Shown in pieces: positions 6,520 to 31,236 of a DNA stretch of 32,930 bases. Where the stretch lies: assembly GCA_023265925.1 (NCBI GenBank), contig JAHFSD010000014.1:1-32930 (forward strand). Reading direction: 5' to 3'. The stretch is from an archaeon. Its GTDB lineage: Archaea > Nanobdellota > Nanobdellia > Woesearchaeales > GW2011-AR9. Under the pieces are notes generated by a model. The model saw only the letters and a program-made list of their open reading frames with translations, had not been told where the DNA came from and made no database searches. Made by a program: the position numbers and the translations under genes. How positions within the stretch are numbered: the stretch's first letter is position 1; every line of letters starts with the position of its first letter.

Positions 6520-6607
6520 GCCCCAGTGGCTTAGCCCGGTTAGAGCAGTCGGCTGTTAACAACAGAAAGATACCGACAGATCACCAGTTCAAATCTGGTC
6601 TGGGGCG
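6520..6607 (+). tRNA. tRNA-Asn(GTT), 13-nt intron at 37/38 (6559-6571)
   Basis: Acceptor gccccag/ctggggc; anticodon stem gtcgg/ccgac; spliced loop CTGTTAA; T-arm accag-ttcaaat-ctggt; TATA 'atttataaag' about 30 nt upstream. Confidence 0.88.
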
Positions 6608-6614
6608 CTTTTTA

Positions 6615-6773
6615 CTTCCCTAACCCCACTCCATACACTCTTTCCGCCACCTTCCTCATCGTGCCCACCTCCTCCCCTTTCCCGTTCTTAAACAGCAGTT
6701 CGCCATAGCCATGCACGACAATTTCCAGGCCCTGCTCCCTGATGACGAGAAGGATGGGAGTCTCTGGCAATTT
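6615..6773 (-). pseudogene. 5'-truncated copy of the small gene at 9978-10247
   Basis: Minus-strand translation ETPILLVIREQGLEIVVHGYGELLFKNGKGEEVGTMRKVAERVYGVGLGK* closely matches the C-terminus of the 9978-10247 product. Confidence 0.8.
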
Positions 6774-9919: not shown

Positions 9920-9977
9920 ACTTAGAAATTGTGTGCATCTTTATATATTTTACTTTTTACTTAACAGCTCGTCCTCT

Positions 9978-10247
9978 TTACTCCCCTAACCCTTTCTCAT
10001 ACACCCTTGCCGCCACTTTTCTCATTGCGCCCGTATCCTCCTCTTTCCCGTTCTTAAACAGCAATTCTCCATAGCCATGGACGACAATTTCCAAGCCCTG
10101 CTCCCTGATGACGAGAAGGATGGGGGTTTCCAGGACAATTTCAAATTCCTTTTTAATCCTGGCTAAATTCAATTTCCGGGAAGAAGGCAGTTTGGCCGAA
10201 TAGCCGGCACGGGTTTTACATTTTTCGATGGTGAATTGAATCATCAT
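9978..10247 (-). CDS. Small conserved archaeal-type protein of unknown function
   Basis: 89 aa ORF between psmA and the large secreted protein; 3' end duplicated at 6615-6773. Confidence 0.7.
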   Translation of the reverse strand: MMIQFTIEKCKTRAGYSAKLPSSRKLNLARIKKEFEIVLETPILLVIREQGLEIVVHGYGELLFKNGKEEDTGAMRKVAARVYEKGLGE

Positions 10248-13678: not shown

Positions 13679-14140
13679 ATGAACATAAAACAAAATGTTG
13701 CGGGAGCTGTTGCGGCTGTTGGTTTAGTTGGATTACTATATGCTGTTGCTCCTGGAAGAGAAATTAAGCCCATTGGATGGGGTGATGTGAATGGTGACGG
13801 TGTTAGTGATGCACTGTTGATCGATAGGCCAGAAGGATTGACAAGCGGCTTTTGGTACACATTAGGATTTGTAGATGGAACTCGTGTTCAACCAGATAAA
13901 GAAGGAACGCTACGAACGAAGGCACCATTCGAATATTTTCTAATCGAAGGAAAACAACCTAGCTTAAATTCTTCAGAATTACGAAATTTCCTTACTCGTC
14001 AAGGCATTACCTATACCGCCAGGGTTAACCGGCTTGGTCAAAGACCGGGTGATTGTGTTAACTTGACATTGTATACTAATGTTGATGAAGAACCCGGATT
14101 TAACGAAGAGATTTTTCCATGCATAAACCGAGATTTGTAA
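13679..14140 (+). CDS. Hypothetical secreted protein with an FG-GAP/dockerin-like Ca-binding segment
   Basis: N-terminal hydrophobic segment; 'GWGDVNGDGVSDALLIDRPEG'. Confidence 0.55.
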   Translation: MNIKQNVAGAVAAVGLVGLLYAVAPGREIKPIGWGDVNGDGVSDALLIDRPEGLTSGFWYTLGFVDGTRVQPDKEGTLRTKAPFEYFLIEGKQPSLNSSELRNFLTRQGITYTARVNRLGQRPGDCVNLTLYTNVDEEPGFNEEIFPCINRDL

Positions 14141-14310: not shown

Positions 14311-14530
14311 GGGCCTGTGGTCTAGTGGCTATCTCTTTAAAAGAGACCATTGATGACGTCTCGTTGACGAAAACTCGTTAAATTCGTTGTTTTCAGAGTC
14401 GAGAAGAACCCCGGTTCGAAAGCAAGTTACACTATGCAAGTCGTACTCAGGTGGGATATTCCTCCCTGTGGTCGGAAATCCCACGACACTGGCAAAATAA
14501 TGTAACAGAACGAAAGTCCGGGCAGGCCCA
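14311..14530 (+). tRNA. tRNA-Val(GAC) with three introns: 14331-14352 (20/21, 22 nt), 14370-14398 (37/38, 29 nt), 14421-14516 (59/60, 96 nt)
   Basis: Spliced: GGGCCTG TG GTCTAGTGGCTATGAC G TCTCG TTGACGT CGAGA AGAAC CCCGG TTCGAAT CCGGG CAGGCCC A; each junction lies in a bulge-helix-bulge-like fold; TATA 'tttataaaa' about 32 nt upstream. Confidence 0.88.
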
Positions 14531-27280: not shown

Positions 27281-27473
27281 GGGCCTGTGGTCTAGCGGCT
27301 ATCTTTGGGCGAAGAAGACTGCAGATGACAACTCCCTTACACGGAGTAGATCCCCGGTTCGAACGCAAGTTACACTAGGCAAGTCGTACTCAGGTGGGAT
27401 ATTCCTCCCTGTGGTCGGAAATCCCACGACACTGGCAAAATAATGTAACAGAACGAAAGTCCGGGCAGGCCCA
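27281..27473 (+). tRNA. tRNA-Val(TAC) with two introns: 27301-27324 (20/21, 24 nt) and 27364-27459 (59/60, 96 nt)
   Basis: Spliced: GGGCCTG TG GTCTAGCGGCTATGAC A ACTCC CTTACAC GGAGT AGATC CCCGG TTCGAAT CCGGG CAGGCCC A; TATA 'tttttaaag' about 30 nt upstream. Confidence 0.88.
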
Positions 27474-29299: not shown

Positions 29300-29454
29300 A
29301 GCGCCCGGAGGGATAGTCGAAGTTCCGCTTCTCCTTTAGTTCCTACGGAACTTACTCGAACCCTCGAATGCTCGCTGTCTTCTGTTCATTGCCATGATGG
29401 CTCATCCTTGCGGACGACTGCAGGCGAGTACCTTTGCCGCTTGGTGACGGGCGC
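29300..29454 (-). tRNA. tRNA-Cys(GCA) with two introns: 29377-29417 (37/38, 41 nt) and 29314-29354 (59/60, 41 nt)
   Basis: Minus-strand spliced: GCGCCCG TC ACCAAGCGGCAAAGGT A CTCGC CTGCAGA GCGAG CATTC GAGGG TTCGAGT CCCTC CGGGCGC T; U73 fits Cys. Confidence 0.88.
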
Positions 29455-30858: not shown

Positions 30859-31056
30859 AGTAATACTTTAGCTTCCTGAAGTGAAGCTCTACCGTCTTCT
30901 CGGCAAGTAACCTATGCAAGTTACTCAGGTGGGGTACTCGCTCCGCTCGACCCCACGATAATGATAGTGGATGGGACAACCCCCCGTCTGCTTGCTACAG
31001 CACCCGAGGAGGCTCGACCTGAGGATGGTAGAGCTTCACAAAGCTAAAGTATTACT
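30859..31056 (+). ncRNA. Candidate structured ncRNA (or IR-bounded element) with long paired termini and a core shared with tRNA-Val T-loop introns
   Basis: gtaatactttagctt...aagctaaagtattac and gtgaagctctacc...ggtagagcttcac nested stems; 'tatttaaag' TATA at 30836-30844; core 'GCAAGTAACCTATGCAAGTTACTCAGGTGGG..CCCACGA'. Confidence 0.65.
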
Positions 31057-31071: not shown

Positions 31072-31200
31072 TGGACCTGGGGAGACAGTCAAAGCTCCGC
31101 TGTTCGGTCAGTTCCTGCGGAACTTATTTGAACTCCCGACCCCCAGCTTAGAAGGCTTGCACAATACTTTGGTGCCCTATCCAGGCTAGGCTACAGGTCC
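31072..31200 (-). tRNA. tRNA-Arg(TCT) with two introns: 31157-31169 (29/30, 13 nt) and 31086-31126 (59/60, 41 nt)
   Basis: Minus-strand spliced: GGACCTG TA GCCTAGCCTGGATAGGGC A CCAGC CTTCTAA GCTGG GGGTC GGGAG TTCAAAT CTCCC CAGGTCC A; TATA 'tttataaag' about 30 nt upstream. Confidence 0.9.
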
Positions 31201-31236
31201 TTACCGTCAACAGAAAAGAATATTCTTTATAAACAT

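Follow-up and report, generated by a model that had tools for sequence, protein, structure and literature searches.

The locus at 31072-31200 of the window (by which we mean the whole 32,930-nt stretch of DNA analysed) is very probably a functional Woesearchaeote tRNA-Arg(UCU) gene interrupted by two independent introns of the bulge-helix-bulge (BHB) type. The sequence here was as given in a preliminary description, which had been silent on the strand; we found the gene to lie on the minus strand, running from 31200 to 31072. The precursor has the layout GGACCTGTAGCCTAGCCTGGATAGGGCACCA-(AAGTATTGTGCAA)-GCCTTCTAAGCTGGGGGTCGGGAGTTCAAA-(TAAGTTCCGCAGGAACTGACCGAACAGCGGAGCTTTGACTG)-TCTCCCCAGGTCCA, where parentheses mark the introns of 13 and 41 nt, and its parts, with the basis of each assignment, are the following.

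31072..31200, minus strand: tRNA-Arg(UCU) precursor, 129 nt including discriminator A73 (ARAGORN on the spliced form; unguided scan)
31226..31233, minus strand: TATA box TTTATAAA, ~30 nt before the 5' end of the tRNA (sequence)
31170..31200, minus strand: exon 1, tRNA positions 1-29 (sequence and spliced form)
31157..31169, minus strand: intron 1, 13 nt, at 29/30, AAGTATTGTGCAA (sequence, fold, pairing across sequences)
31127..31156, minus strand: exon 2, positions 30-59, anticodon UCU (sequence and spliced form)
31086..31126, minus strand: intron 2, 41 nt, in the T loop at 59/60, TAAGTTCC...TTTGACTG (sequence, helix test, covariation, fold)
31072..31085, minus strand: exon 3, positions 60-73 (sequence and spliced form)

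Removal of both introns gave a 75-nt tRNA-Arg(TCT) whose stems are all fully paired (acceptor 7/7, D 4/4 with one G-U, anticodon 5/5, T 5/5), which is the spliced product that had been claimed, and ARAGORN called this doubly spliced form tRNA-Arg(tct), in agreement with the proposed identity and anticodon. The same program missed the precursor in any mode and the singly spliced forms in default mode. Searches of Rfam at gathering and relaxed thresholds returned neither a tRNA nor any other credible RNA at the locus, as expected because the gene is doubly interrupted, and across the whole window tRNA-Asn was the sole tRNA found by ARAGORN and Rfam. An unguided spliced-tRNA scan, whose model allows at most one D-arm, one anticodon-arm and one T-loop intron per tRNA, scored exactly five tRNAs in the window at 47.5 to 57.5, namely Asn(GTT), Arg(TCT) (54.5), Val(TAC), Cys(GCA) and Val(GAC), while the same scan of 40 Markov-simulated null windows produced zero tRNAs and a best score of 34.2. 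The predicted fold of the precursor (z = -3.0) holds both splice-site hairpins. Upstream of three other tRNAs of the window we also found TTTATAAA or the AT-rich TTTTTAAA; a sigma-70/terminator scan, which is not suited to archaea, found nothing.

AGA codons account for 44 of the 6543 codons in the main ORFs of the window. We looked for an intact second tRNA-Arg(TCT), which would speak against the preliminary description, and found none in this genome (86% complete), where the sole full-length homologue was tRNA-Arg(CCT), itself interrupted at both of the same places. Given that AGA is in use and that the search recovered no other tRNA-Arg(TCT), it is probable that the gene is both essential and spliced.

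At the 29/30 site, the GCAC/GTGC pairing with bulges CAA and AAG that had been described proved exact. The outer helix is AGG/CCT, the central GCAC/GTGC helix has 4/4 pairs, the bulges are CA^A and AA^G, and a short loop stands where the inner helix would be, which corresponds to the relaxed hBH/BHL type. The 9-bp helix reported for the 41-nt T-loop intron at 59/60 (AAGTTCCGC/GCGGAGCTT, one G-U) was equally exact, and 0 of 2000 shuffles reached such an inner helix in exact register. Here the T stem GGGAG/CTCCC forms the outer helix, the bulges are AA^U and UG^U, and in the central helix U54-A57 (TTCA) faces the intron sequence UGAC (TGAC) through three pairs and one U.C mismatch; this site is close to a strict BHB. 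Two 3-nt bulges with a 4-bp helix between them, the arrangement that characterizes a BHB, were thus present at both sites, at 29/30 in relaxed form. Because A and T are repeated, the cut points are ambiguous by one base (28/29 versus 29/30; 59/60 versus 60/61), and 29/30 and 59/60 were chosen on the basis of the 3-nt bulge geometry.

In comparisons across sequences, both splice-site structures kept their pairing. In the family of the 41-nt intron (described below), 94% of cells were paired, both partners had changed in five pairs (A57-U to G57-C among them), and 0 of 500 shuffles reached the observed covariation score; as this comparison comprises only four sequences and four of the five two-sided pairs lie in the T stem, we regard it as supportive rather than strong. 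The U.C mismatch in the central helix recurs in all four members, which counts against the model. At the 29/30 site, 100% of cells were paired in six sequences, and the one two-sided change (A-U to G-C) was equalled in 68 of 500 shuffles, which also counts against the model.

For transcription, cutting, ligation and the order of splicing, we infer the following pathway. The gene would be transcribed from the TATA-box promoter, after which positions 24-27 would base-pair with the last nucleotides of the 13-nt intron to give a relaxed BHB in the anticodon arm, and the T stem, the pairing of U54-A57 with the intron and the 9-bp intron hairpin would together give a near-canonical BHB in the T arm. 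A homo-oligomeric splicing endonuclease (EndA) would then cut in both bulges of each BHB, and the RNA ligase RtcB would join the exons into a mature tRNA reading AGA.

Homologues of tRNA-Arg(TCT) were obtained by searching 99 related genomes and were aligned with introns allowed. Intact orthologues (L018, L021, L031) were found alongside one with the 59/60 intron alone (L032), one with a 29/30-type intron alone (L011) and two with both introns (L010, L012). In other lineages (L013, L015, L016, L020) the aligner put the anticodon-arm intron at 28/29, with a slightly different BHB. The tRNA-Arg(TCT) of genome G002, 93% identical over query positions 1-74, carries an unrelated 47-nt intron at 59/60. 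These data bear on the possibility that the locus is a decaying pseudogene with two random insertions, AGA being read by another tRNA. Standard tRNA finders do miss the gene and the genome is a draft, 86% complete; however, all exon bases fit a perfect cloverleaf, the TATA box is in place, both inserts have a BHB geometry that covaries, relatives have different intron sequences at the same two sites, and most tRNA genes found in the genome are likewise interrupted. We considered a pseudogene extremely improbable and rejected it in favor of a functional, spliced tRNA-Arg(UCU) gene.

The host genome (1.20 Mb, a Woesearchaeote by its EndA relatives) has a heavy intron load. A plain tRNA model detected 8 genes in it and 3-29 in other family members. 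Targeted parsing yielded 28 genes, or 29 with tRNA-Cys, among which 27 had at least one intron and 17 a T-loop intron, with about 47 introns in all; this inventory, from targeted searches, is incomplete, and several genes were found via the T-loop pattern or element, so that the intron fractions are biased upward. Automatic anticodon-loop boundaries are approximate, we assigned anticodons manually wherever they were of consequence, and L053 and L066 are uncertain. A strict T-loop intron pattern matched 152 times in 51 genomes of the family versus 32 times for the reversed control; in 116 genomes that belong to the class but not to the order, the two counts were 62 and 59. This indicates that T-loop intron enrichment belongs to the order and family and not to the whole class. 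In the relatives G027, G009, G223 and G205, a short T-loop intron peculiar to each genome recurs at many sites (TATCCTTTAGGGAGACTACAAATCTTCCTGAAGATTTGAAAG in G027, for instance), which suggests that short T-loop introns have spread repeatedly within genomes.

Intron 2 belongs to a small family that crosses tRNA isotypes. Its second carrier in the window lies 1.7 kb from tRNA-Arg.

29300..29454, minus strand: tRNA-Cys(GCA), unguided scan score 49.5
29417-29377, minus strand: anticodon-loop intron of tRNA-Cys(GCA)
29354-29314, minus strand: T-loop intron of tRNA-Cys(GCA), 41 nt, 78% identical to intron 2

Homologues at the same T-loop position were found in Arg(TCG) of G050 (85%) and Gln(TTG) of G002 (73%), two genomes from other genera than the host, and 0 of 5000 shuffles gave alignments of the 41-nt introns as good as those observed. 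The mature Arg(TCT) and Cys(GCA) sequences agree in 43 of 75 columns, well below the identity of their introns. Homologous introns in different isotypes, the mark of transposed introns, were therefore found in Arg(TCT), Cys(GCA), Arg(TCG) and Gln(TTG), and a pattern search of the 51 family genomes recovered four copies in all. The presence of related introns in T loops of several distinct tRNAs implies that introns have moved or been copied between tRNA genes, and we infer that the T-loop intron of tRNA-Arg(UCU) would have come by copying from another tRNA gene. Two pattern matches to this family in IMG/VR both fell within a phage DNA polymerase reading frame and were dismissed as chance.

If the introns were instead old, vertically inherited and immobile in a genuine tRNA, the likeness of the T-loop introns would have to come from the T-loop pairing constraint alone. 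Both sites are indeed interrupted in many family members, and the intron 3' ends are constrained because they must pair with TTCR. However, the likeness spans the whole 41 nt, unconstrained loop included, across isotypes; in G002 the 59/60 intron of Arg(TCT) is unrelated, while the 41-nt family sits in Gln(TTG) of the same genome; and in many genomes an intron sequence particular to that genome recurs in several tRNAs. We consider vertical inheritance alone improbable, and movement or copying of the introns remains our preferred reading.

A second family of longer introns (80-141 nt, core CTAGGCAAGTCGTACTCARGTGGGG..CCCCACGACACTGG) occupies the same kind of position. In this genome it was found at about ten T-loop sites, in Arg(CCT), Val(GAC), Val(TAC), Asp, Lys, Gly and other tRNAs, and at one anticodon-loop site, in Ala(TGC); in relatives it also occurs in T loops of Arg(TCT). 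The remaining tRNA genes of the window comprise its two carriers and the sole tRNA there that lacks a T-loop intron.

14311..14530, plus strand: tRNA-Val(GAC) with D-loop, anticodon-loop and T-loop introns, the T-loop intron (14421-14516) being of the longer family
27281..27473, plus strand: tRNA-Val(TAC) with D-loop and T-loop introns, the T-loop intron (27364-27459) being of the longer family
6520..6608, plus strand: tRNA-Asn(GTT) with a 13-nt anticodon-loop intron

The two tRNA-Val genes have a 96-nt T-loop intron in common (repeat D2), and standard tRNA tools miss both genes. Copies or fragments of the longer element also occur at L070 (G000:C39) and L068 (G000:C5) with no recognizable tRNA around them, hinting that the element is not confined to tRNA genes. 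At L067 (G000:C27, around 13844-13877), a truncated, reversed copy adjoins a Thr-like tRNA with an intact T loop, and after it the T-arm/acceptor end occurs once more (GTTCAAATCACGGCAGG), an arrangement that is possibly the trace of an insertion or recombination event.

How the introns were copied is less certain. Gene conversion or recombination at the common T arm, as opposed to a transposition-like process, would concern only the origin of the introns and is compatible with the explanation that we favor. T loops differ very little from one tRNA to the next and could direct recombination over short tracts, and most copies of both families lie at the same 59/60 site; against this stand the longer-family copy in the anticodon loop of Ala(TGC) and the partial copies near or outside tRNAs (L067, L068, L070). 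We regard recombination as a serious possibility, if one that we would put at about one chance in three.

Genes for both EndA and RtcB are present in the genome, the latter split over two contig ends. A search with PF01974 found one EndA gene in each of 31 genomes, as a single match in 30 and as two adjacent fragments in G018. When the host genome was searched for a second subunit with PF02778 (the N-terminal domain), only the PF01974 gene was returned, and a fused three-unit EndA of about 395 aa was not found, the protein of this genome being 197-220 aa in length. The protein aligns with the M. jannaschii alpha4 enzyme and the N. equitans catalytic subunit and is closest in sequence to the latter. 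The A. pernix insertion, which represents the crenarchaea-/ARMAN-specific loop, is absent from the host EndA and from 64 of 65 relatives, and the segment at the specificity-loop position has 8-10 residues in 64 of the 65. Judging from these sequences, EndA likely assembles as alpha4. In woesearchaeal EndA, the short segment after FG and before LSLLE has a recurring lysine, mostly as GK[VI], where the crenarchaeal specificity loop sits; it might stand in for the loop lysine.

According to previous work, relaxed introns are removed efficiently by (alpha-beta)2 and epsilon2 EndA only (PMC6379350), and lineages with alpha4 or alpha2 enzymes have few introns (PMC4090602). A heavy intron load together with one short, loop-less EndA places this lineage outside the published rule, unless a diverged subunit was missed. 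The relaxed 29/30 site also counts against the model, since a single short EndA is not the type of enzyme expected to cut it. We tentatively propose that Woesearchaeota rely on a short EndA, encoded by one gene, lacking the loop and probably alpha4, to excise introns of both the near-canonical and the relaxed kind from most of their tRNAs, and that small intron families, including the 41-nt one, have been spreading between tRNA genes by exploiting the invariant T loop (TTCR), which would supply half of a splice site in advance; we would give this two-part proposal somewhat less than an even chance of being right. If true, it would break the accepted link of noncanonical introns to (alpha-beta)2 and epsilon2 enzymes, and the T loop would be a landing site for mobile BHB introns.

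The tRNA-Arg(UCU) gene itself is a known type of feature, with BHB introns at published positions. Noncanonical archaeal intron positions that include 29/30 and 59/60 have been reviewed, with Crenarchaeota and Nanoarchaeota as the rich sources (PMC4090602); positions, bulge-helix-bulge anatomy and the occurrence of more than one intron per gene are the same here, in a Woesearchaeote host. Multi-intron tRNAs and large-scale intron transposition were described in Thermoproteales by Fujishima 2010, as cited in PMC4090602 and PMC4033280, and P. calidifontis has 71 introns in 46 genes (PMC8450103). The present genome resembles Thermoproteales in that introns of unrelated tRNAs are alike, that a gene may hold as many as three introns and that the load is comparable (about 47 in 29 genes), but differs in lineage, in endonuclease type and in that most of the copies shared between tRNAs lie at one site, 59/60. 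The Asgard Atabeyarchaeia and Freyarchaeia also have intron-rich tRNAs (PMC11291895); by load and positions, the terms in which we compared them, they are alike in having >90% of tRNA genes interrupted, noncanonical positions and multiple introns, and differ in phylum. Nanoarchaeum equitans and Nst1 are likewise DPANN, Nst1 has no identified beta subunit, and the EndA described here is closest to the N. equitans catalytic subunit, whereas Nst1 has only two intron-containing tRNAs compared with most of those found here (PMC3655853). It is less expected to find a T-loop hotspot, intron families that cross isotypes and a single EndA lacking the loop together in a DPANN lineage. Our literature search, which lay outside subscription journals, found no report on woesearchaeal tRNA introns.

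Plain models recover about 8 tRNA genes here and in some relatives as few as 3, so counts that take no account of introns probably underestimate the tRNAs of this lineage, and hidden introns may explain part of the apparent loss of tRNAs in DPANN. The lineage offers another system, in addition to Thermoproteales, in which to study the movement of BHB introns, and it raises the enzymatic question of whether a loop-less alpha-type EndA can cut relaxed sites.

Two further elements adjoin tRNA genes of the window. Just downstream of tRNA-Arg, ~200 nt at 30859-31056 form a long closing stem (16 + about 19 bp) with several inner hairpins (-93 kcal/mol, z = -8) and have no credible Rfam match; the plus strand of this region contains a segment similar to introns of the longer family (CTATGCAAGTTACTCAGGTGGGG..CCCCACGATA), and the predicted fold is possibly that of an unknown structured RNA or a mobile element. 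A direct repeat of 157 nt, 85% identical between 6608-6764 and 9974-10130, has its first copy beginning at the 3' end of tRNA-Asn.
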